DNA of 64,000 nt. It comes from Pseudobdellovibrionaceae bacterium. GTDB taxonomy: Bacteria > Bdellovibrionota > Bdellovibrionia > Bdellovibrionales > Bdellovibrionaceae. Both the position numbers and the translations under genes were made by a program. Every line of letters starts with the position of its first letter. The stretch's first letter is position 1. The notes beneath the pieces are model-generated. The model did not search any database. It saw only the letters and a list, made by a program, of their open reading frames with translations, and was not told where the DNA came from. The stretch is taken from the NCBI GenBank assembly GCA_016785955.1, contig JAEUWH010000087.1, positions 1-64,000 on the forward strand, read 5' to 3'. This document shows, piece after piece, positions 21,937 to 34,492 of this stretch.

Positions 21937-22134
21937 GGAATTCCTTATATTTTCAGGTTCTGTATGTAAAAATATCAGTCAGTAGAATAATCGGTCAACG
22001 AGGTTCGACATTGGTCTGGCTTGGTTTTTTCAGATAACTGTCTCAGTGTGAGAACTTTCTTTTTTACGCTCATGTTCTAATAAAAAATGTTCGATAATAA
22101 ATTCAAGCACAATAATAAATGCGCTGGAGGATTT

Positions 22135-22323
22135 ATGAAGCTTACTAAAAAGAACAAAAATAAATTTTTAAAAAATGAAAAAGGGCAAGGAATGGTCGAG
22201 TACATTTTGTTACTTGTCGTGATCATCGGCCTGGTACTTGCGTTCAAACCAAAAGTTGAGGCTTATTTCACTAAGGCAACAGATAAAGTTGGCTCTGGTA
22301 TGGACGGAGTTATCGGTAACTAA
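22135..22323 (+). CDS. flp: Flp-family type IVb pilin
   Basis: A 62-residue pilin. The basic leader KLTKKNKNKFLKNEKGQG ends at a class III cleavage site, after which MVEYILLLVVIIGLVLAF provides the N-terminal helix with Glu at position +4/+5 and tyrosine next to it, a hallmark of Flp pilins. Mature length of about 45 residues is typical. The start is the ATG after GGAGG; a longer in-frame start lacks a ribosome binding site. It opens the Tad operon and should be the major pilus subunit, exported and assembled by the genes downstream. Confidence 0.92.
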   Translation: MKLTKKNKNKFLKNEKGQGMVEYILLLVVIIGLVLAFKPKVEAYFTKATDKVGSGMDGVIGN

Positions 22324-22338
22324 TTTTTGGAAATATAA

Positions 22339-22530
22339 ATGACTATAGAATACGTCCTGCTTATTTTTTGTATGTTCATGATCGGTCTGAAGTTTTTCTT
22401 TTCAGCTCCTATGGAGGCATTTCGAGACTATGGTCCGGTGCTGGGTGCTCGGGTAGAAAAGCATTTGACGACTGGTCATGGGTTTAAAATGCAGGACGGA
22501 TCGGCTCATCAGTGGACTACCGCCCGGTAG
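22339..22530 (+). CDS. Small pseudopilin-like protein, 63 aa
   Basis: Begins MTIEYVLLIFCMFMIGLKF, an N-terminal pilin-type helix with Glu near position 4, but without the basic leader needed for prepilin peptidase; a stop codon directly upstream rules out a longer start. The remainder is a short polar tail. It lies between the pilin and a TadE-like gene with 15 bp and overlapping spacing, so it belongs to the Tad operon. It may be a minor pilin or a pilus-base component. Confidence 0.6.
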   Translation: MTIEYVLLIFCMFMIGLKFFFSAPMEAFRDYGPVLGARVEKHLTTGHGFKMQDGSAHQWTTAR

Positions 22531-22796
22531 GGTCGAATCAGACCCGATTTAGTAAAAGAAAATCCAAAGGACAATTTGTAATTGAAGCTGTTTTACTTTT
22601 AGTGATTAGCACAATGTTGCTTTTGGCCTTGAAGAATTGGGCCGCTGAAAAACAATTTTTTGCTAATATATTTACTAAGCCATGGATGAAAATTGCCGGA
22701 ATGATAGAAAATGGAGTTTGGGGTACACCTGCTAGCACCAGGTCCAAGCATCCCCATAATCCTGACTCTGTGGCGACTTTACAGGAACTTCCCTGA
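22512..22796 (+). CDS. TadE-like minor pseudopilin, 94 aa
   Basis: Frame contains KRKSKGQFVIEAVLLLVIS, a basic leader, glycine and Glu at +5, followed by a single hydrophobic helix; this is the pseudopilin pattern of TadE-type proteins. The C-terminal part is short and proline-rich. The start GTG overlaps the previous gene by 19 bases and has only a weak ribosome binding site, so its exact start is uncertain. Confidence 0.55.
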   Translation: MDYRPVGSNQTRFSKRKSKGQFVIEAVLLLVISTMLLLALKNWAAEKQFFANIFTKPWMKIAGMIENGVWGTPASTRSKHPHNPDSVATLQELP

Positions 22797-22938
22797 TAGA
22801 AATGCCTCTCATTTCTAATGACACTTTCTGAGTGACACAAGAGATCTATGACGTCTCAGTAACCGCAGACCTAGACCAATAACGAGTTATCGAATTCAGT
22901 GAACTGTCCGAGAATGAGATCAGGAGTTTAGCAGTAAA

Positions 22939-23574
22939 ATGACGATACAAAAAAACCTGAAAAATAGAAGCGGCTTTTTGACTATCGAATTTGCGATGGC
23001 TTTGTTGATGTCTGTGGGACTAAGTGTAATATTTTTCGTTCTGGCATTCAGTCTGTCGTCGGCATTTGTGGCTCAATACATCGGCTATTCGGTGGGTCAT
23101 ATATATGCTGGAGGTAATATCAATGTTCAAGAACAGGAAAAATTAGCAAGCCAGAAATTTAGAAAAATTATGGCGACGCCGGGAATAGGAAAGTTATTTT
23201 CTCAGGGATGGTTTACGTTGGTTCTGGATTCTAATGCATTTCGCAGTGGTCAGAACGGGCAGATATTCGAGGAATATGGTGGCAGTAGGGATGGGCAAAG
23301 ACTGGCAGCGACAGGCGTACGCTTGGTTTATACGACAAAGTTATTTAACCTAAATTTAGGTCCCTTGGGCAGCACGAACCCAGATGACGAGGCGTTTTCT
23401 GCCAAAATCACGGGGTTTATGATTCGCAATCCCACGCAAAAAGAATGCGAAGATTACATGAAAGTAGAGACTCGTCATCAGGCACTGATTCAGATCGATA
23501 GTCGTTTTAGTCAGTATGATTCAACTCCGGGAAGTAATCAAAAATACTTTCCAATGGAGGATAACGGATGTTGA
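22939..23574 (+). CDS. TadE/TadF-like pseudopilin, 211 aa
   Basis: Leader MTIQKNLKNRSGFLTIEFAMALL has the GFxxxE cleavage motif; one hydrophobic helix (about 10-38) is followed by a periplasmic domain of about 170 residues. TadE and TadF pseudopilins are processed like the pilin and are needed for pilus assembly and surface adhesion. It ends overlapping the next gene by 7 bases. The sequence beyond the helix is not recognisable to me. Confidence 0.7.
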   Translation: MTIQKNLKNRSGFLTIEFAMALLMSVGLSVIFFVLAFSLSSAFVAQYIGYSVGHIYAGGNINVQEQEKLASQKFRKIMATPGIGKLFSQGWFTLVLDSNAFRSGQNGQIFEEYGGSRDGQRLAATGVRLVYTTKLFNLNLGPLGSTNPDDEAFSAKITGFMIRNPTQKECEDYMKVETRHQALIQIDSRFSQYDSTPGSNQKYFPMEDNGC

Positions 23575-24095
23575 AAAACAATCGCGGTATGGCCGCACTA
23601 GAAGTCGTAGGTATTTTTGCAGTCATCATGATTTTGTTTAATTTTAGTCTTGGGTTTTATGGAGTCATCCAGACAGGAATTTTAAAAAGTATGGCCGCAC
23701 GCAATTATGCATTTGAAACCTACCGCTTTCGCAGCAATTTAGATTTCTTCTGGCGTAATGGTTCGGATACGACCGGATTGTCGCGATATCGTTTATTTGG
23801 AAATCGTTTCCATGGCGTGACCTCGGAAAACTCTGTCGCTAGCGATCATTGGGCCGCTACGGCCCGTCCGATATCGTTTGTCAGTTCCTTTGGTGGCATG
23901 GGTGAGGACGGTGTTGACTACAGTCGAACTCCAGGCAGCGATGGAAACGCGCAATTACATAACAAACTTGTCTATGAAATCCGTGATGATGGAAAACCAT
24001 TGCTAGATGAAAAAGATAAATACAAAGCGTTTCCAGTATGGATTAAATCTGTCTACGGAATTTGTATCAACGCGAAGTGTGCTCCGATAAAGTAA
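23568..24095 (+). CDS. Second TadE/TadF-like pseudopilin, 175 aa
   Basis: Starts in an overlap with the previous gene, with GGAGG seven bases before the ATG. NNRGMAALEVVGIFAVIMILF is a pseudopilin leader and helix with Glu at +5; the periplasmic part follows, with two cysteines near the end (GICINAKCAP) that may form a disulfide. Part of the Tad operon. About 235 bp separates it from cpaB, in which I see only a short inverted repeat (24186-24200). Confidence 0.7.
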   Translation: MLKNNRGMAALEVVGIFAVIMILFNFSLGFYGVIQTGILKSMAARNYAFETYRFRSNLDFFWRNGSDTTGLSRYRLFGNRFHGVTSENSVASDHWAATARPISFVSSFGGMGEDGVDYSRTPGSDGNAQLHNKLVYEIRDDGKPLLDEKDKYKAFPVWIKSVYGICINAKCAPIK

Positions 24096-24330
24096 CTGTC
24101 GAATTTTTATTCAAATGCCAAATTGAAAGCTAAAAAATGGTGTTGGTAACAAAGTACCTAAATCCAATGTTCTTTCTTTAACTTAGTTTTGTCCCAAAAC
24201 AAGACATCCATCTGAACTATCTGAACTTTTAACACGTAAAACAGTAAAATGGACCAAAGACCTGGGGTGATGTCTAAAAAATATACCGATAGAAGGTTGA
24301 ATAACTTGAATATTTTTTCACGAGGCTGTC

Positions 24331-25218
24331 ATGGGAAATGAATCAAAAAATCTGTGGATTTCAATTTTTGCCGGTGCGTTTGCCGCCTTCATGATTTACA
24401 GCTATGCACAAGAACAGAGGAAAGCAATTAAAGAGCAGCTGGGTGCTCGTAAAGTCGTTGTCGTCGCGAAGGAAGACATTCCTGAAATGACAACGATCTA
24501 TGATTCTATGTTGGAAACCAAATCGGTACCGATTGATTTCGTACCGGATGGATTTTATTCTAATGTTCAGGAAATTGTTGGAAATGTTTCGGCAGTTCCG
24601 TTCAAAAAAGGCCAACCTGTTCTGAGGAATCACTTGTATTCGCCTGGCGCTGATACGGGAATTGCCTTGCAAGTCGCACCTTCTAAACGCGCGCTTGCGA
24701 TTCCAATTGATGAAGTGCGTGGTGTTGCTAAACTTATACGTCCGGGTGACCGTGTCGATATTTTTGTCGCTTTGGATGTGGGTAAAGGGGCTAACTTAAG
24801 ACGCGAAAGTTTTTTATTGATGCAAAATGTAGTGGTTCTGGCGGCGGGTGTCTCGGTTCAAAACAACATTCCTCGTCTAATTGAATACGATTCAACTGGA
24901 AAAAATGCTATACAAACCTCTCTCACCGGCGACACAAAATATAGTACAATCACAATTGAGGCTGAGATTAAAGAAGCTCAGGATTTGGTGTATATTCTAT
25001 CCACGTCGCCAGGAAATATTTATCTGACTTTAAGAAATCCTACCGATGGAACTCTGAAAGCCAGGTTGCCTAGTTCTACAGCCGAATCAATCTTAGCGCG
25101 GGCTACCGAGGGTAGTACAGCCGTTGCACCTGTTCCACAGCCACAGTCGAATCCTTTTACGGGAGGAATTCTTCCGCCCAGTGGAAACAGACCCAGCGGA
25201 ACCGGTGGAGGTCGTTAA
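24331..25218 (+). CDS. cpaB: Flp pilus assembly protein CpaB/RcpC
   Basis: A 295-residue periplasmic protein with an N-terminal membrane anchor (about 8-25), an SAF domain (about 40-110, VVVVAKEDIPEMTTIYDSM), and the RcpC region with GVAKLIRPGDRVDIFVALDVG. The C-terminus is proline-rich and disordered. CpaB joins the secretin to the inner-membrane machinery and is thought to bind peptidoglycan. Three bases before the secretin-gene region; preceded by CACGAGG. Confidence 0.88.
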   Translation: MGNESKNLWISIFAGAFAAFMIYSYAQEQRKAIKEQLGARKVVVVAKEDIPEMTTIYDSMLETKSVPIDFVPDGFYSNVQEIVGNVSAVPFKKGQPVLRNHLYSPGADTGIALQVAPSKRALAIPIDEVRGVAKLIRPGDRVDIFVALDVGKGANLRRESFLLMQNVVVLAAGVSVQNNIPRLIEYDSTGKNAIQTSLTGDTKYSTITIEAEIKEAQDLVYILSTSPGNIYLTLRNPTDGTLKARLPSSTAESILARATEGSTAVAPVPQPQSNPFTGGILPPSGNRPSGTGGGR

Positions 25219-25241
25219 AAGTGCTTAAGGGGGATACTCAA

Positions 25242-26834
25242 ATGGCGATTCTTAAAAATCTTATAGTTGTAACTCTTCTACTTTCGTCGCAAGTCGCTTT
25301 GACCCAAGAGCCTGGTGTCGAGGGCGGTGATGCTCCGGCGGCTGATGAAGCTAACACTGAAAATGAAGACAAATTAGCGGCGGATCAATCGACTAATGAT
25401 GTGTTTACCACCGATGGTAATGATTTGGCGGTTTCGTATCGACAAGCAGAGTACATCAACTTAACATTTGGTATTGAAGAGGATAAAAAACTTCCTCCCC
25501 TGCCAAAGAAAATTCGTTATGATGGCACCTATAAGAAATACGTAAAAATTGAATTTAATAAAAAACTAAATCTTTTTCGTTTTAAACCTACAGGTGAAGG
25601 ATTTGGGACACTGGTGATTTACGATGCTAAAAACAACAAAAAGGTTGTCGAGTATCGCATTAACGTCAGAAAAAATTCGTTGGACAAAGTAGTCATCGAA
25701 TTAAAAGGCATGCTGGCGGATATCGACGGCATCGCGATTAAAATTATTAATAACAAAGTAGTGATTGACGGTCAGGTATTGACGCCAAAAGATTTAATGC
25801 GCATTAAAAATGTGATTCGTCAATTTGGTGACAAAGTCGACAGTATCGTCAGCGTGAATCCAATGGCTTACAGCAAGATCTGCCAGTTCATCATGAGTGA
25901 TATTAATAATCCAGAAATTGAATGTCGCGCACGCCACGAGAAAATTATTCTTCAAGGCCAAGTCAACTCGGGCGAAGAAAAAGTCCAAGCGGAAATCATT
26001 GCAAAAATTTACATGCCGCCCGTGTATGTGGATCCAGCGTGCTCAGAGGGCTCAATTCGTTGTCCCAAGCCTGTGAACGACGGGGTCATTAATATGATCA
26101 CTGTCAAAGAGGGCGCTCCACCGCCACCAAAGAAGTTAGTGCAGATGAATATTCACTATGTGGAATTGAAAAAAGACTATTCAAAATCATTTCGGTTTGA
26201 ATGGGCGCCGGTGATCTCGGATCAATCGGGTGTTCAAGCTTCGGCCGGTGATCAAAATGGTGGAATTGTAACTTCACTGACGGCCGTGGTAAGAAATTTA
26301 TTGCCAAAGTTGAATCATGCCAAGACTCATGGTCATGCACGCGTACTAGAGAGCACTTCGTTCATGGTTCGTGATGGTGAAAAAGGTTCGATTTCTCAGA
26401 CCATCGACGAACCATACTCGGTTATTGGGCAAAACGGCAATCAAGGAACGGCATTCACGCCCACGGGCCTGAAAGCGTCGATCACGCCGACGATCAGTGG
26501 GGACAAGTCTGGGACTGTCGAGATGAAACTGGAATTTCAAGTCAGCCAAAAAGTGGGCGTGGTCGGTGGAAGCCCAGTGGTTTCAAAGAACGAACTGATC
26601 ACTGTCATCGCCGTTCGTGACCGTCAAAGCGCGGCTGTGGGTGGATTAATCAAGAACTCTACGGATACAAATTATAATCGTGATCCTGCTAAGGAAGCCT
26701 TGTTCAACGCTTTAGCGGCCAAGGGTACATCCCGAAATCAAAATCAATTCGTGGTGTTTGTCACACCCAAGATCATTACCTCGGCCAGCGCGGATTCGGA
26801 AAAAATCAGATCCAAGTTCAAAATGCCTTACTAA
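25242..26834 (+). CDS. cpaC: Tad pilus secretin CpaC/RcpA
   Basis: A 530-residue outer-membrane secretin. Signal peptide (about 1-22) is followed by an acidic disordered stretch, an N-terminal periplasmic domain (about 60-150), a BON-like domain (about 155-200) and the secretin core: GEKGSISQTIDEPYSVIG, ASITPTISGDKSGTVEMKLEFQV and the C-terminal VRDRQSAAVGGLIKNSTDTNYNRDP and FVVFVTPKIIT. The ring forms the exit pore for the pilus. The ATG after AGGGGG is preferred to an upstream GTG. Confidence 0.9.
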   Translation: MAILKNLIVVTLLLSSQVALTQEPGVEGGDAPAADEANTENEDKLAADQSTNDVFTTDGNDLAVSYRQAEYINLTFGIEEDKKLPPLPKKIRYDGTYKKYVKIEFNKKLNLFRFKPTGEGFGTLVIYDAKNNKKVVEYRINVRKNSLDKVVIELKGMLADIDGIAIKIINNKVVIDGQVLTPKDLMRIKNVIRQFGDKVDSIVSVNPMAYSKICQFIMSDINNPEIECRARHEKIILQGQVNSGEEKVQAEIIAKIYMPPVYVDPACSEGSIRCPKPVNDGVINMITVKEGAPPPPKKLVQMNIHYVELKKDYSKSFRFEWAPVISDQSGVQASAGDQNGGIVTSLTAVVRNLLPKLNHAKTHGHARVLESTSFMVRDGEKGSISQTIDEPYSVIGQNGNQGTAFTPTGLKASITPTISGDKSGTVEMKLEFQVSQKVGVVGGSPVVSKNELITVIAVRDRQSAAVGGLIKNSTDTNYNRDPAKEALFNALAAKGTSRNQNQFVVFVTPKIITSASADSEKIRSKFKMPY

Positions 26835-26844
26835 TACTAAGTCG

Positions 26845-26895
26845 TGCTCAGAGAATACTATACTCTGATATTCTAACACTCTAGAACTCTGAGCA
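26845..26895 (+). repeat. Nested inverted repeats after the secretin gene
   Basis: TGCTCAGAG (26845-26853) pairs with CTCTGAGCA (26887-26895), enclosing AGAATA/TATTCT. The result is a two-tier hairpin that could end or pause transcription or be an RNA-processing site between cpaC and the ATPase gene. Confidence 0.4.
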
Positions 26896-26986
26896 TAGGG
26901 CCTGTCGCGTATGGGGGCCGGTGTGCGTGCCGCCCGCCCCTGGATGTCTGGAGCACAAACTACGCCAGCAGAACGTTTTTTTAATG

Positions 26987-27016
26987 GGCCTAGCAAAAAG
27001 CTGGGCCTTTGCTTTT
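26987..27016 (+). terminator. Hairpin upstream of the fusion ATPase gene
   Basis: GGCCTAGC pairs with GCTGGGCC (one G-U) around AAAAA, followed by TTTGCTTTT. It would partly separate the pilin-to-secretin genes from the ATPase-TadB part of the operon. Confidence 0.5.
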
Positions 27017-27105
27017 GTGTAATATGTAAACCAAACTTTGGGCGGGTTGTCTGATTTTGAAAATTGACCGATATGGTAGGTGGAGAATTTTATGAGGAAC
27101 ATACC

Positions 27106-29304
27106 GTGGCTTTAAATCCAAATTGTACTTTAATAGGTGTCATTGGCGGAAAAGGTGGAGTGGGTAAAAGTATTTTTGCGGCCAATTTTTCATTGGCTTT
27201 GATGAATGAACTTCGAACCCAGGTGTTGCTGATAGACGGAGACTCGAAATCCATCGGTGATCAAAATTTTTTGCTGGGACAAAAGCCAGTTAAGACGTTG
27301 CGGGAAATTGCAAATTTGAATACGGGTTTGTCATCGACGCCATTGAATCAATTGGTCAACACGCACCCGTCTGGTTTAGCCTATCTGGGCGCGGTTCGAG
27401 GTCCTGAGGAAAAGTTGGATGTGAACCCGGAAGCCTTGATGCGACAGATTGAGTTCTTCAGCCGTCAATTTAAATTTATTGTGGTCGACTTGGGGAATGA
27501 CATCGGTCCTTTGCAAAACGCATTTCTTTTAGAAGCGACGGCGTGTTATATCATCACCACACCAGAAGTTTTAGTCGTGGCGCAGACTCAGCGTTTAGTG
27601 AACGATATGTTATCGGCGACGTTTCCTCGAGACATGTTTCAATTGGTGATTAATAAAGTCAGTCCTTCGGGAATTTCTCCTCAAGATATTAGCAATTCAT
27701 TGCGATTGCCACCGATGGGTTTGATACCGCAAGATGAAATCACGTCGCAGGCCTCGATTCAAAAACAGACACCGTTTGTGATTTCTCAGCCCAAAGCGCC
27801 CATTACAAACAGCTATTATGATATTGTTCGTCGTATCACGGGCGGAACTTTGCAAAGGCTGAAAGGATTGGCCAAGCCCAAACCAGTGGCCGCCAGTGTG
27901 GAATCCAGCGGCGGTGCCGGTGCGGGTTTATCGGCGGCAGCGTTGCAAGGCTTGGATCCGCAAGTGCAAATGCGTCTGCGCGTGCATTCGGAACTGCTGC
28001 GCTTGCCCGAGTTATCGCGAATGATGAAAGACTTCACCGCGGATGAGTCTAAACAAAATGAAATCAAAGACCGTATTAAGCGCGAGATCACGCAAATTGT
28101 GGATCGCGAAGCTCCCGAGTTGGCGCGAGACAAGCGACAAGTGCTGATCGAAGATGTTTTAAAAGAAGCGCTGGGGTTAGGTCCATTAGAGGATTTGCTG
28201 GCGGATAAAGATATTTCCGAGATCATGATTAACGGTTACAAAAAAATATTTGTTGAAAAAGGTGGTAAGCTGACCTGGGCAAAAGAAATGCAATTCACGT
28301 CGAACGATCATCTTCGTCGTATTATCGAACGAATTGTGACGCCACTGGGTCGTCAGATCAACAATGCGAGTCCGATGGTGGATGCACGTTTGAAAGACGG
28401 CAGCCGGGTGAACGCGATTATTGAGCCTTGCTCGATTGATGGTCCGGCAGTGACAATTCGAAAATTTAAAAAAGGTGGCGTCAGTCCAGAAAAGTACGTC
28501 GATTATGGATCGATGACCAAAAACATGATCGATTTTCTGCGCATTTGTGTTGAGAACGGCATGAACGTGGTTATCTCGGGTGGTACCGGCTCGGGTAAAA
28601 CGACATTGCTCAATATGCTCTCGTCATTTATCCCCGTTTCAGATCGTATCGTCACGGTCGAGGATGCGGCCGAGTTACAAATGCAACAAGATCATGTGGT
28701 TCGATTAGAAACGCGTCCGACGTCGATGGAGGGATCCCATGCCATCACGATTCGTGATTTGATTAAGAATGCGTTACGTATGCGTCCTGATCGAATTGTG
28801 GTTGGGGAATGTCGTGATGGCGCGGCTTTGGATATGTTGCAGGCGATGAATACGGGTCATGATGGTTCGATGACGACGACCCATGCGAATAACGCAAAAG
28901 AATGTATCTCCCGCTTAGAAACTTTATGTATGATGGCCGGTATGGATCTTCCCGTGCGCGCGATTCGTGAACAGATCGCCAGTGCGGTACATATTATCGT
29001 TCAGGTTTCCCGTTTATCTGATGGCTCTAGGAAAATCATGTCGATCACGGAAGTCGATGGCATTCAAGGCGAAGCCGTGACGTTGGCGCCGATTTTTATT
29101 TTTAAAGAAACCGGTTATGATGCTAAGAAGAAAATTTTGGGACAATTCCAACCTACCGGTTACATTCCCAAGCTGATCCAAAAACTAGCTGCGAAAAATG
29201 TTATTGTTCCGAAGGAGTTATTTTTAGCGGACTCGGTGAAAGCCGCTGCGTCCACAACTGGTCCATCGGCCAATCCACAAACTCCGGCGAAAAAGATAGG
29301 ATAG
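27106..29304 (+). CDS. TadZ-TadA (CpaE-CpaF) fusion ATPase
   Basis: A 732-residue protein joins two Tad components. Residues 1-270 form a ParA/MinD-type ATPase with deviant Walker A GGKGGVGKS (signature lysines K16 and K21), DGDSKSIGDQN and a VDLGNDIG segment, like CpaE/TadZ but without an N-terminal receiver-like domain. A linker rich in alanine/glycine follows. From about 310 to the end is the secretion ATPase CpaF/TadA, with Walker A GGTGSGKTT near residue 490, Asp-box and GECRDGAALDMLQAMNTGHDGSM. TadA powers pilus extension; TadZ localises the complex. The GTG with GAGGA seven bases upstream is the best start. Confidence 0.85.
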   Translation: MALNPNCTLIGVIGGKGGVGKSIFAANFSLALMNELRTQVLLIDGDSKSIGDQNFLLGQKPVKTLREIANLNTGLSSTPLNQLVNTHPSGLAYLGAVRGPEEKLDVNPEALMRQIEFFSRQFKFIVVDLGNDIGPLQNAFLLEATACYIITTPEVLVVAQTQRLVNDMLSATFPRDMFQLVINKVSPSGISPQDISNSLRLPPMGLIPQDEITSQASIQKQTPFVISQPKAPITNSYYDIVRRITGGTLQRLKGLAKPKPVAASVESSGGAGAGLSAAALQGLDPQVQMRLRVHSELLRLPELSRMMKDFTADESKQNEIKDRIKREITQIVDREAPELARDKRQVLIEDVLKEALGLGPLEDLLADKDISEIMINGYKKIFVEKGGKLTWAKEMQFTSNDHLRRIIERIVTPLGRQINNASPMVDARLKDGSRVNAIIEPCSIDGPAVTIRKFKKGGVSPEKYVDYGSMTKNMIDFLRICVENGMNVVISGGTGSGKTTLLNMLSSFIPVSDRIVTVEDAAELQMQQDHVVRLETRPTSMEGSHAITIRDLIKNALRMRPDRIVVGECRDGAALDMLQAMNTGHDGSMTTTHANNAKECISRLETLCMMAGMDLPVRAIREQIASAVHIIVQVSRLSDGSRKIMSITEVDGIQGEAVTLAPIFIFKETGYDAKKKILGQFQPTGYIPKLIQKLAAKNVIVPKELFLADSVKAAASTTGPSANPQTPAKKIG

Positions 29305-29310
29305 ATCGTA

Positions 29311-30186
29311 ATGGATTTTTTGTTCAAACCAGTTCCTTTCATTATTCTAACGACACTGGCCATTGCGGTGTGCATTTATGGTTTGAGCGGACTGCTGTTC
29401 CCATTTTTTGAAAAGAAGTCGGCCTCTAATCGGAATATCATTTTACGTTACTATGAATTAATGGGTGTTCAAACCAACCCCAAAAAAGTAACTTACTTGT
29501 TGTTTGGATTAAGCTTTGGTTTGGGTGGCGTGTTTTTTTTCCTGTTTTGGCCGGACGTGATTGCGGGCTTGATGTTTGGGTGTTGTGTCGGCATCGCCGG
29601 TTGGAACTTGCCGGTGTTGTTAGTGAAATCAACGTATGAAAGTCGATGCAACCGATTTGTCGAACAAATGGTGGACTCGTTGACGATCATGGCTAATGGA
29701 ATCAAGACCGGATCAAACCCTGTGCAATCGATGCAGCGAGTGACCGAGATCATGAACAACCCGATTCGCCAAGAATTTGAAAAAGTCATTGGGGATACGC
29801 AACTGGGGTCCAGTTTTGAAGAGGCGCTGAACAAACTGGGCGAGCGAGTGCCTAGACCCGACGTGCAAATGTTCGTGACCGCGATTAATATTTTAAAAGA
29901 AACCGGTGGTAACCTGGCCGAGACCTTCGAGACTATTGTCTTTGTTATCCGTGAGAGGCAAAAGATTGAAAAAAAAATCGAAGCCATCACATCCAAAGGG
30001 GTCATGCAAGGTATTATCGTGATGCTGGTCCCGTTTCTGATATTCGTTGTTTTTCTTTTTATGGATCCTGCGTTTATCCGACCAATGTACACTACGACGA
30101 TGGGCTATATTTTGCTCTTTGTGATGCTGGTCTTGCAGGTAATTGGTGGAATTTGGATCAAAAAAATTGTTACAATAAAGGTATAA
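29311..30186 (+). CDS. tadB: Tad secretion platform protein TadB
   Basis: A 291-residue inner-membrane protein of the type II/IV secretion F (GspF-like) family. Membrane helices at about 10-30, 62-100 and two more at about 225-290 bracket a cytoplasmic part holding FVEQMVDSLTIMANGIKTG and EKVIGDTQLGSSFEEAL. TadB with TadC forms the platform on which TadA acts. No TadC follows directly; the next gene is a YD-repeat protein, so TadC may be elsewhere or fused functionally. Six bases after the ATPase stop. Confidence 0.88.
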   Translation: MDFLFKPVPFIILTTLAIAVCIYGLSGLLFPFFEKKSASNRNIILRYYELMGVQTNPKKVTYLLFGLSFGLGGVFFFLFWPDVIAGLMFGCCVGIAGWNLPVLLVKSTYESRCNRFVEQMVDSLTIMANGIKTGSNPVQSMQRVTEIMNNPIRQEFEKVIGDTQLGSSFEEALNKLGERVPRPDVQMFVTAINILKETGGNLAETFETIVFVIRERQKIEKKIEAITSKGVMQGIIVMLVPFLIFVVFLFMDPAFIRPMYTTTMGYILLFVMLVLQVIGGIWIKKIVTIKV

Positions 30187-30207
30187 TCAAGGAAGGATTT
30201 TTAGATT

Positions 30208-31869
30208 ATGAAAAGCTCTCTCATCCTCACTTTCCTAGCGTTGGTATCGTTTCAGGCGCATGCCATTGTCGACATGAAAAATGCGAATTATTCTAATACG
30301 TGGGTTGATTTTGAACTGGATGGCACCGGGTATGATTTGAAATTGGAAAGAACATATAACAGTCGTACACTGTTCAATGGCATTTTCGGTTTTGGGTGGT
30401 GTACAAATTTTGAAACCAAGTTGCAAATCACTTCGGAAGGTAATTTAAAGGTTCGCGAGTGCGGCGCAGGGGCCGAAGTCGTGTTTTCTCCGCGTGAAGT
30501 GGGAAAACAGGAAGTTGAAAAAGTTGTGGATTTCATTATCGGGAAAATGAAGGCCGAGAAAATTGCGGGTCGTAACGAAGATTTTTATAAACGCAAAAAG
30601 GAAGAATTATTTGAGTACGATGACACGCGAACAAACGTGGCCCGACAGTATGGATGGGCTCCTAAAGTCGTTGATGGTACCAAGTTCATGGCTAATGGAA
30701 AAGAAGTCGAAAACATCATTTTTAAGACAACCTATTACGAGCGCACCCTACCCGACGGCTCAAAACAGCGCTTTAATCCGCAAGGTCAAATGACTTACAT
30801 GTATGATAAAAACGGCAATATGCTGAAATTGGATTATGATAAGGCCGGCTTATTGAAGGAAGTGGCCGATACGAATTCACGCAAGCTGACCTTTAAATAC
30901 TATTCTGCCAATAAAAAAGTGCAGCAAATTTTCGGTCCTAATGGGTTGACCGCGGAATATCAGTACATAAATACGGATGATCTTCACTTTTCGAAAGATT
31001 CAAAAAAATACGCGACAAAATATCTTTATGATGATCTTCATAATTTAACGAAAGTCGTTTTTACGGATAACTCGGTTATAAATATAAAATATGATCAGAA
31101 CAACGATTGGGTCATTGGGTTTACGGATCGTGATAAATGCGTCGAGAATTACACGTATGAGGTCGACAAGAAAGATCCTAAAGGTCATTTCTGGTCGACG
31201 GTCAAAAAAACCTGCGGCAAAGAAGTGGTGGCGCAAAGCCGATATGAATTCTGGCACAAGCAAAAACCTAATGGAGAGTACGTACTATCGCGAGTGTACT
31301 CTAAGGAAAACGACAACGAGACGGATATTTCTTATCATGAAACATTTGGTCGTCCATTATCCATCAAGAAAAATGGCGATAAATTTTCGTATGAGTATAC
31401 GCCCGATGGTTTGGTGAAAACCAAACTGACGGCCAATAACAAACTTATTTTCGAGTACAATAATTCTTTAAAAAAGCCATCTAAGGTGACGGTGGAAATA
31501 ATGAATGAAAAGGGCCGAAAAGTTTCTACCAAATACACGGTTTTCCAGTACGACAACAAGGGAAATCTGAACTTTGCGGAAAATTCTGATGGACAGAAAA
31601 TCGAACTTTCGTATGACAATCGCGGACGTATTACAAAGATTGTAGATCAGGCTAAGAAAGTGGTTAAGCTAGAGTACGAAGAAAAATATAATAAACCAGT
31701 GACGATTTCACGGCCAGGTTTGGGCTCAGTGAAGGTTTCCTATAAAACAAATGGTGATATCAATAAAGTCGACAGTAAAGAGGGACCCAGCGTTGCTATG
31801 CAGGTGGCCAGTACGTTTAACACGTTACTAGATATTATCGCGCCCGCTACTCAGGAATTATTTTTATAG
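30208..31869 (+). CDS. Secreted YD-repeat (RHS-like) protein, hit-locus Bd0109-like
   Basis: A 553-residue exported protein with signal peptide (about 1-19) and a segment typical of RHS N-termini (SNTWVDFELDGTGYDLKLERTYNSR, DUF6531-like). It then carries multiple YD repeats, for example YDKNGNMLKLDYDKAG, YDDLHNLTKVVFTDN, YEYTPDGLVKTKLTA and YDNRGRITKIVDQAKK. The repeats should form a beta-shell. There is no C-terminal toxin domain. It follows tadB directly and precedes a small secreted protein, the order I recall for the Bdellovibrio hit locus where Bd0109 is the partner of Bd0108. Likely envelope-associated and linked to pilus function. Confidence 0.75.
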   Translation: MKSSLILTFLALVSFQAHAIVDMKNANYSNTWVDFELDGTGYDLKLERTYNSRTLFNGIFGFGWCTNFETKLQITSEGNLKVRECGAGAEVVFSPREVGKQEVEKVVDFIIGKMKAEKIAGRNEDFYKRKKEELFEYDDTRTNVARQYGWAPKVVDGTKFMANGKEVENIIFKTTYYERTLPDGSKQRFNPQGQMTYMYDKNGNMLKLDYDKAGLLKEVADTNSRKLTFKYYSANKKVQQIFGPNGLTAEYQYINTDDLHFSKDSKKYATKYLYDDLHNLTKVVFTDNSVINIKYDQNNDWVIGFTDRDKCVENYTYEVDKKDPKGHFWSTVKKTCGKEVVAQSRYEFWHKQKPNGEYVLSRVYSKENDNETDISYHETFGRPLSIKKNGDKFSYEYTPDGLVKTKLTANNKLIFEYNNSLKKPSKVTVEIMNEKGRKVSTKYTVFQYDNKGNLNFAENSDGQKIELSYDNRGRITKIVDQAKKVVKLEYEEKYNKPVTISRPGLGSVKVSYKTNGDINKVDSKEGPSVAMQVASTFNTLLDIIAPATQELFL

Positions 31870-31880
31870 GAGTTATGAAA

Positions 31881-32255
31881 ATGAAATATTTAATTTCAAT
31901 CATCTTGGTTTTGGCAGTATTTAACAGCTTTGCGCAGACGGAAAAGGAAGAGACGTCAACTCCGGCACCAGAATCAGCAACAGCAAAGGGCGGTATCAAA
32001 ATTGAGGATATCAAAAGAACCGCAACTCCAGGACAAGGTGGAGTACCTAAATCAAAACCTCGTACTGAGCCACAAGGAACACTCGATGATTGTATTACGC
32101 GAGATGCGAAAGGGCGTTGTTTACAAAGCACTCAAGGACGCGCCACCTCACATGCTGAGAATTTTACTCCAGCCAACGCTCCGGCCGTACCACCGACAAC
32201 ACCTGCGGGTTCGACGGACGGTGGAAATGCCGAAAGAAAACCTAAAGAAAGATAA
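31881..32255 (+). CDS. Small secreted disordered protein, hit (Bd0108-like)
   Basis: A 124-residue exported protein: signal peptide MKYLISIILVLAVFNSFAQ, then a low-complexity region rich in T, P, A, S, G and K with a single pair of cysteines in DDCITRDAKGRCLQ. The mature part should be disordered, as reported for Bd0108. The ATG with GGAG eight bases upstream is preferred to an ATG two codons earlier. In B. bacteriovorus, mutations in this gene permit prey-independent growth. Assignment rests on position after TadB and the YD-repeat gene, on size and on composition, not on sequence search. Confidence 0.6.
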   Translation: MKYLISIILVLAVFNSFAQTEKEETSTPAPESATAKGGIKIEDIKRTATPGQGGVPKSKPRTEPQGTLDDCITRDAKGRCLQSTQGRATSHAENFTPANAPAVPPTTPAGSTDGGNAERKPKER

Positions 32256-32269
32256 AAGTAATAAATAAA

Positions 32270-32560
32270 TTAAATATGGATTTTGCCAGACACCAGATTG
32301 TCAATGGTGTCGGCATGCTGACGACGTAAGGCATTTTTGATCGCCATTTCCGTGCGTGCTGCAAATTCGTTCATTAAATTTGCATAGGGTGTCTTGATCG
32401 TGGCTTTCACTGCACCACCCGCAAAGACTCGTGTTACGATAAAAGGATTCTTGGCTCCCCAATCTTCGGTTTGAATATGCAGGCTCATGCCTTTGACTAC
32501 GATATCAGAATTAAAACCCTTCTGCATGGGGTCTAAATGTAGTGTAAATTTCTTTTCCAA
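32270..32560 (-). CDS. Conserved-looking 96-aa protein of unknown function
   Basis: A compact protein of mixed beta/alpha character (FTLHLDPMQKGFNSDIVV, then TEDWGAKNPFIVTRVFAGG). No signal peptide or helix is visible. The open frame begins at TTG with no strong ribosome binding site, and a later ATG is possible. It lies convergent with the hit-like gene, only 14 bp apart. I do not recognise it; function unknown. Confidence 0.5.
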   Translation of the reverse strand: MEKKFTLHLDPMQKGFNSDIVVKGMSLHIQTEDWGAKNPFIVTRVFAGGAVKATIKTPYANLMNEFAARTEMAIKNALRRQHADTIDNLVSGKIHI

Positions 32561-32803: not shown

Positions 32804-34492
32804 ATGAAATCGTCTTTTATAATCGCCACATTTTTCGCTACCATATTCGGCCTCAGTCAATGGTGTTTCGGTGCAGAGGGCGATGCATCTACAAAAGAAA
32901 CACAATGGGAAAAGGATTATGGCGCCATTTTCGCAAGTTATGAAACGTGTCTTGACGGCATAAAGGACACTACTGCTGCTGCAACAACAGTAGGAACTGC
33001 CATCGTCAGCAACAGTCGATTAGAGAGTCGTTCAAAGAGTTGTGCGTTAAAAGAAAAGGTCAATATGGAGATAAAAAGAAAGAACTGTGCAAAAATTACG
33101 GAGTGCAAAGACTATTGGGACGATCAGATTGCGCAGTTTAGTGCTGTTAGCAACATCGTAGATCGGAAAGAAGAGAGGCGCCAAACGCGATGTGAAAATA
33201 GGTATAACGATGACCAGGAGATCTATACCGATTGTAAGGGTGGTGCGGCGGCGAGAGCGAAAAGTTGTACTAAATTTAATAAAAATGAGGATACGGGATT
33301 TTTGGATAGTGATAATATGAAAAGTATGGCTCCTATGTTAGGGATGGTGAATGGGGCCAATGTGTTGCTGGATATGTATAGCACGATGAACAGTAATCCC
33401 AGTTGTTCGATGAGCAAAGAAGATTTTTTAAATCAAAAAGACAAATTAGAAACAAAAGCCAGTGAAATAGAAGACAAAATTCGTGATTTGCGACAGCAAT
33501 CGGAAGAAGCACAGGCGGACTACACAAAGCAGCTTGAAGAGTGGGCGGATCGTGAACGCGAGATTGCGGATCGTTTGACCGAACTTCCCCAGGAGCTGAG
33601 TGAAAAAGAGCGAGAATTGATTAAAGAGCGAACGAAAGTTAAAATGGAGGCCGATCAAAAATACCAGGAGGTCTCAGCCAGGATTGCGGAAACAAGCCGA
33701 AAAATAAATGAGGTTATTGATGCGCGAAAGGTCGCCGTTGCCGGTAAATCCATGTTTTCCATCCATGATTTATGCGCCGAAAAAGCCGTTGGTGGCGATC
33801 CTGAAAAAAATAAAAGTCGACCGCAAGCCTCGACGGCGGTGCAATCTAGTTTTGCTAATGCGTATGCTCAAGGTAAAGCACTGAAAGAGAATATTCAGTC
33901 GCGTTACAATAACTGTGTAAAGTCAGAAAATGCGGTCCTATCGCAGACCACGAATGCCTATGAGCGCGCCTTGTCTACGTTGAAAGACGACGTCTTAAAA
34001 TTACAAAGTAGTTATGGAGACATTGCGAAAAGAAAAGAGATGGCGGATAAAGATCTCGAGGATGCCATCCGCAGCCTTAAGCTTAAGGGTGAAACGGAAG
34101 CTGCCAAATTGCGTAACGAATATCTGGTGATTCAACAAAAGAAACAGGCGGCCCAAGCAAATTTAAAAACCAAGTTAGAGCGTTTGAGTTCAGACTCGCA
34201 AAAACAGACTCAAAAATTAGCCGTGTTAGAAATGCAGATTAGACAGTATCAAGGAAAACCACCAGCCGCCAATTCGAAGGGTCTTTCGATGGGCGATCTA
34301 GCGGCGCAATGTGGTGAGTCCTATCAGAGCCTGCTTACTGATTTCAAAAAAACGTGTTGTGATGTTGAAGGATTTGAATTTACCGGAACGGGGAATTCAG
34401 TCTGTCGTATCAAAACCGAAGCCGAGAACAAAGCCGCTGCTGATGCCGCAGCCGAAGCTAAAAAGAAAAAGAAATCTAGTACGACCAAATAG
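32804..34492 (+). CDS. Large secreted coiled-coil protein, 562 aa
   Basis: Signal peptide (about 1-23) is followed by a cysteine-rich region (about 50-200, e.g. YETCLDGIKD, RSKSCALKEK, KNCAKITECKD), then a long heptad-rich coiled coil (about 210-305, KLETKASEIEDKIRDLRQQ to QKYQEVSARIAETSRKINE) and a second one (about 370-470). It ends with a cysteine-containing motif (KKTCCDVEGFEF) and a lysine-rich tail. Probably periplasmic or exported. Preceded by a long upstream region without other genes. No family recognised. Confidence 0.65.
   Translation: MKSSFIIATFFATIFGLSQWCFGAEGDASTKETQWEKDYGAIFASYETCLDGIKDTTAAATTVGTAIVSNSRLESRSKSCALKEKVNMEIKRKNCAKITECKDYWDDQIAQFSAVSNIVDRKEERRQTRCENRYNDDQEIYTDCKGGAAARAKSCTKFNKNEDTGFLDSDNMKSMAPMLGMVNGANVLLDMYSTMNSNPSCSMSKEDFLNQKDKLETKASEIEDKIRDLRQQSEEAQADYTKQLEEWADREREIADRLTELPQELSEKERELIKERTKVKMEADQKYQEVSARIAETSRKINEVIDARKVAVAGKSMFSIHDLCAEKAVGGDPEKNKSRPQASTAVQSSFANAYAQGKALKENIQSRYNNCVKSENAVLSQTTNAYERALSTLKDDVLKLQSSYGDIAKRKEMADKDLEDAIRSLKLKGETEAAKLRNEYLVIQQKKQAAQANLKTKLERLSSDSQKQTQKLAVLEMQIRQYQGKPPAANSKGLSMGDLAAQCGESYQSLLTDFKKTCCDVEGFEFTGTGNSVCRIKTEAENKAAADAAAEAKKKKKSSTTK

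Follow-up and report, generated by a model that had tools for sequence, protein, structure and literature searches.

Gene content of the operon end and collinearity with HD100

The stretch of DNA analysed here (64,000 nucleotides, hereafter the window) is part of a 4.34-Mb genome in 124 contigs, which belongs to the family of Bdellovibrio and to a different genus. A Tad pilus operon occupies positions 22087-32255 on the plus strand. It opens with a Flp pilin gene (22087-22323), which together with four small pilin-like or Tad-accessory genes fills 22087-24095, and continues with RcpC/CpaB (24331-25218; Pfam RcpC, E 3e-18), a secretin of the RcpA/CpaC type (25242-26834; Pfam Secretin, E 2e-17), a fused ParA/CpaE-like and TadA (CpaF) ATPase (27064-29304; Pfam T2SSE and CbiA, with a match to the TadA family TIGR03819 below its cut-off) and TadB (29311-30186; Pfam T2SSF, E 3e-18). 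An earlier note on this DNA had read two further open reading frames behind TadB; both are present, on the same strand, and close the operon. The first, 22 bases downstream of the end of TadB at 30186, encodes a secreted DUF6531 and YD/RHS-repeat protein of 553 amino acids (30208-31869; the YD protein), and the second, 5 nt after its stop, encodes a secreted protein of 126 amino acids that is predicted to be disordered (31875-32255; the small protein). An Rfam scan of 20-36 kb gave no match, and a promoter scan returned fewer hits than in shuffled sequence and a terminator scan only marginally more; neither scan was therefore used further.

The operon was compared with that of B. bacteriovorus HD100, which we take to be represented by the one-contig genome G003 (3,782,950 bases) in view of the cysteines and repeats of its Bd0108 gene and of the published RNA next to it (see below), and proved collinear gene by gene with bd0119-bd0109 (HD100 97.2-111.4 kb). 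Order and direction are shared for TPR, hpt, Flp, the four small genes, CpaB, the secretin, CpaE-F, TadB and the YD gene, and every window gene compared between 18895 and the YD gene, the latter included, has its HD100 counterpart in the same order, at 36-58% for the pilin gene and the four small genes, 58% for CpaB, 53% for the secretin, 68% for the fused ATPase (HD100 99861-101984), 56% for TadB (98880-99752, the HD100 gene between bd0109 and tadA) and 60% identity for the YD protein (97197-98846). The block of TadB, YD gene and small gene is collinear with bd0110-bd0109-bd0108, as are the genes upstream of it, and the gene order proposed in the earlier note holds. Synteny of bd0109-bd0113 had been reported earlier (PMC5430801).

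Two genes beyond the operon were also recorded. A 96-aa ORF on the minus strand (32270-32560) converges on the small gene, is 63-90% conserved within the genus and was not found at the other loci compared. Further on, 32804-34492 encodes a 562-aa exported coiled-coil protein with a cysteine-rich N-terminus, which changes fast (39% to its counterpart at locus L009, vs 84-94% for its neighbours).

The YD-repeat protein

The signal peptide of the YD protein ends in AHA, and Pfam places DUF6531 (PF20148, E 4e-11) and RHS repeats (PF05593, E 1e-15) in the protein, as expected of the secreted YD-repeat protein described in the earlier note. Pairwise comparison with Bd0109 gave 59.7% identity over the full 553 aa (E 0), and the gene is the only full-length copy in genome G000; it is clearly the Bd0109 orthologue, as had been proposed. 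Of the 66 genomes of the family, 64 have an orthologue, as do 100 of 104 in the order; with a profile, homologues were recovered from 153 of 157 phylum genomes. Among the 79 loci read, 77 have TadB directly upstream, and so does each of 40 further order loci, a set that overlaps in part with the 79. The YD gene is also kept in four genomes of the same order of 1.2-1.5 Mb and at least 90% completeness (G085, G086, G104 and G106), beside TadB in G085, G086 and G106.

In the AlphaFold model (pLDDT 86), the YD protein forms a beta-spiral, with a helical insert in its N-terminal part and a helix at its C-terminus, and VIA-align superimposes it on the Rhs cores of type VI secretion system (T6SS) effectors (8qjd/8qjb) with a Z of 27 over 396 of 1036 residues; the model therefore corresponds to about half a shell. 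The C-terminal part, ending in ...IIAPATQELFL, is among the most conserved stretches of the protein across the order, and behind the C-terminal helix, which only 3 residues follow, we found no toxin region, autoprotease or added domain. These features bear on whether the two genes could encode an Rhs toxin and its immunity protein, a pairing suggested by the DUF6531 and RHS repeats, by the small ORF right behind them and by the best structural matches being T6SS Rhs effectors. We rejected this pairing as very improbable, because the toxin part is absent and the small protein is exported; moreover, the conserved end stands 3 residues after the helix, the model covers only about 400 of the roughly 1040 Rhs-core residues, and the small protein, besides its signal peptide, lacks a stable predicted fold and is dispensable for viability in HD100.

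The small exported protein and its relation to Bd0108

In the small protein, a signal peptide is followed by a T/P/A/G-rich tail. The cysteine pair noted earlier is present, with a spacing of C73-x(8)-C82 in place of the C-x(7)-C first given. AlphaFold predicts no stable fold (pLDDT 53, pTM 0.18, from an alignment of only 5 rows), NCBIfam holds no family for the protein, and its composition resembles that of its counterparts at other loci. With a strict picker, a short secreted ORF was found right behind the YD gene at 65 of 75 loci, compared to 7 of 485 control gene ends (1.4%), and the same arrangement recurred in the 76 loci read. Such an ORF follows the YD gene at every locus of the family and the order with enough sequence, with few exceptions, being missing at two or three of 40 order loci (L131, L132 and perhaps L130). 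Conservation in relatives, which the earlier note had made decisive, is thus split: presence is kept almost without exception and sequence is not. Among the 76 mature small proteins, 69 have an even number of cysteines, 70 have a cysteine pair within 10 residues (27 in shuffles) and 46 have a CxxC motif (3.7 expected in shuffles); the pair probably forms a disulfide.

The divergence of the small gene far exceeds that of its neighbours. Between the window and L009, the YD protein is 89% identical and the mature small protein 25%, against a shuffled baseline of 19 ± 4%, and between L009 and L010 the values are 98% and 59%, the latter well below every other gene of the operon. In closely related pairs, dN/dS is 0.02-0.2 for the small ORF and 0.003-0.044 for the YD gene. 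Because change in close pairs is mostly synonymous, the small ORF is a real gene, under purifying selection, yet far faster-evolving than its neighbours. Two other explanations were considered and set aside: a chance ORF is ruled out by dN/dS and by the gene-end control, and positive selection behind the divergence is unsupported because dN/dS lies below 1 in all computable pairs (the highest, 0.71, in one distant pair).

Bd0108 of G003 has 101 aa with C56 and C59, matching PMC4267844. Against this protein, phmmer gave no match for the small protein, and a profile of the Bdellovibrio Bd0108 set gave E 3.7, within the range of decoys. The CxxC motif of Bd0108 (C56-C59) is absent from the window protein and is not conserved in its genus. 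In HD100, residues 24-66 of Bd0108, with the core NPGEDPNEA, bind Bd0109; this segment occurs in the Bdellovibrio set and is absent from the window protein, and the same binding mode therefore cannot be assumed. The common bd0108 deletion of HD100 is surrounded by 10-bp repeats 42 bp apart (PMC3818213), and G003 indeed carries CAAAGGCTCC repeats at 207 and 249 of bd0108, 42 bp apart. No such deletion hot spot exists in the window, where the longest repeat is 8 nt. The HD100-type repeats are also absent at L083, in a genome that we take to be Tiberius, and are therefore not a defining feature of Bd0108. The proposed identity with Bd0108 is backed by where the gene lies, by its signal peptide and cysteine pair, by its length and by the disorder tentatively predicted for its product, and not by sequence: the small ORF is the positional counterpart of Bd0108, an assignment that rests on synteny and architecture.

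A rival view is that this counterpart is no homologue of Bd0108. Unrelated short secreted ORFs might have filled the slot behind the YD gene repeatedly, as would fit the missing link between the mature sequences of the window and HD100 and the 54-55 separate groups into which 97 of these proteins fall. We consider this improbable, though less so than a toxin-immunity pair. The cysteine stretch aligns within the genus (C-ITRDAKGR-C / C-EITDANGK-C), no decoy is among the 15 best profile matches outside the set from the genus Bdellovibrio, with three times as many decoys as real proteins searched, and similarity decays smoothly with YD divergence, as for one fast-evolving gene.

The pair also behaves as a unit: where a duplicate YD gene lies away from Tad (L165 and L183), the small ORF has been kept beside it. 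One genome of 2,657,893 bp, presumably B. exovorus JSS, has two YD genes, a Tad-linked one (L097), whose small exported neighbour of 124 aa has no mature cysteine, and one distant from Tad (L165), followed by an 85-aa CxxC neighbour. The L165 pair is evidently A11Q_2207/2208 of PMC4267844, where the passage on this pair makes no mention of the small neighbour at L097.

Several variants of the arrangement were observed. Two short exported ORFs stand in a row behind the YD gene at L166, L167, L169, L170 and L184, and also at L179 and L181; these loci lie outside the order (the first five also outside the class), in the same class or phylum and probably in part in the Bacteriovoracia, and they agree with the two neighbours given for strain SJ in PMC4267844. 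The Bd0108 counterpart at L072 is frameshifted after ...ARTGSPLRQ, with CPECIARMKHTRLGDDTTYR following in another frame. This locus lies in a genome of 3,006,992 bp (G004) that we take to be strain W, and the frameshift would account for the C-terminus that the strain W protein is reported to lack. In HD100, bd0108 adjoins a published RNA (96436-96822), and a non-coding sRNA has been described behind the gene at 96455-96716 (PMC3818213). Within the latter, a 66-aa ORF lies on the minus strand at 96483-96683 (L124/L084); it has a signal peptide and a GGAGAG resembling a Shine-Dalgarno sequence. Between HD100 and Tiberius, 13 of its codons change synonymously and 3 non-synonymously, and relatives of about 41% exist in other Bdellovibrio. 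Rather than acting as a regulatory RNA, the transcript may serve as the message for a small exported protein.

Proposed role and comparison with known systems

Taken together, we read the locus as the counterpart of the hit (host-interaction) locus at the end of a Tad operon, in a genus of Bdellovibrionaceae other than Bdellovibrio, with the mechanism outlined below, and put the probability of this reading at roughly 0.7. In B. bacteriovorus, this gene pair contributes to the choice between life inside prey and life on its own. In HD100, loss or change of bd0108 alters pili and frees growth from prey, deletion of bd0109 was unsuccessful, and Bd0108 binds Bd0109 weakly, with a Kd of 45 μM at about 3:1 (PMC4267844). 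By analogy, the YD protein of the window organism, predicted to be exported by Sec and to fold as roughly half an Rhs beta-shell closed by its conserved C-terminal helix, would be a weak binding partner, at the periplasmic site of the pilus, of the putatively disordered small protein encoded right behind it. Binding would tune pilus extension and retraction, and the state of the pilus would feed into a growth decision. Such binding may rely less on exact sequence than on export, flexibility, composition and the cysteine pair, and a loose dependence on sequence would explain how fast drift coexists with continued presence and purifying selection.

Several observations speak against this reading: the small protein has no sequence link to Bd0108; it lacks the Bd0109-binding segment, and its genus does not conserve CxxC; the HD100 pili affected were, according to PMC3818213, type IVa and not Tad; and near-universal presence in the phylum, genomes of 1.2-1.5 Mb included, suggests a structural Tad function and not a special predation switch. 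The last of these leads to the most serious competing explanation, namely that both proteins belong to the ordinary structure or assembly apparatus of the Bdellovibrionota Tad machine, for instance as a scaffold in the periplasm at the secretin or as part of the tip, and do no signalling of their own, so that the lifestyle effects in HD100 would be indirect. The linkage to TadB at almost every locus, the homologues in 153 of 157 genomes and the failure to delete bd0109 all favour this possibility. Against it stand the viable bd0108 mutants of HD100, which specifically lose prey dependence and regain it on complementation (PMC3818213, PMC11323537), and YD-small pairs away from Tad genes, as at L165; we regard it as possible and as the less probable account. 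A further proposal, which we consider unlikely, is that the YD half-shell is a general Bdellovibrionota carrier which, in the manner of Rhs shells with their cargo, houses a fast-changing, disordered exported protein, and that this protein is a lineage-specific ligand displayed or delivered at the Tad pilus; change in the small protein would then track prey or pilin changes and not loose constraint.

The survey also bears on earlier accounts of Bd0108, which was called unique to Bdellovibrio (PMC3818213), was reported missing in one soil isolate (PMC5941755) and had no match in Bacteriovorax marinus, a marine species (PMC4267844). For activated-sludge genomes, short genes for exported products had already been listed close to homologues of Bd0109, with E-values up to 10 (PMC10469934). 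Our data suggest that, throughout the order, Bd0109 is rarely without a Bd0108-like ORF behind it, and that this ORF escapes similarity searches on account of a pace of change many times that of the neighbouring genes. Newly added here are a phylum-wide survey with controls, rate measurements and cysteine statistics. With them come dozens of naturally occurring variants of Bd0108, from which one could learn whether the switch protein needs its sequence, its cysteine pair or mere disorder, and they call into question which of two things the locus is, a switch for predation or a general component of Tad.

Among known systems, the hit locus of HD100 (bd0108-bd0109 with the Tad operon bd0110-bd0119) is alike in gene order, direction and operon context, in a YD protein that is 60% identical and in a small, exported partner with a cysteine pair, for which disorder is tentatively predicted in the window. 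It differs in that the two small proteins have no detectable sequence kinship (C-x8-C in the window, CxxC in HD100), in the NPGEDPNEA segment and the 10-bp repeats 42 bp apart, both present in HD100 and lacking in the window, and in the 66-aa ORF inside the HD100 sRNA, which has no counterpart in the window. Bdellovibrio exovorus JSS (A11Q_2207/A11Q_2208 and A11Q_2375) shares a YD gene followed by a small exported ORF in both copies, but has two YD genes, and the small ORF of its Tad-linked copy lacks a mature cysteine. The Rhs cores of T6SS effectors and the TcB/TcC shells (8qjd, 7q97, 4igl) share DUF6531 and the YD-repeat beta-spiral fold (Z up to 27), whereas the YD protein has about half their length, carries a Sec signal peptide and no autoprotease or toxin part, and is encoded beside Tad genes and not beside T6SS or Tc genes.
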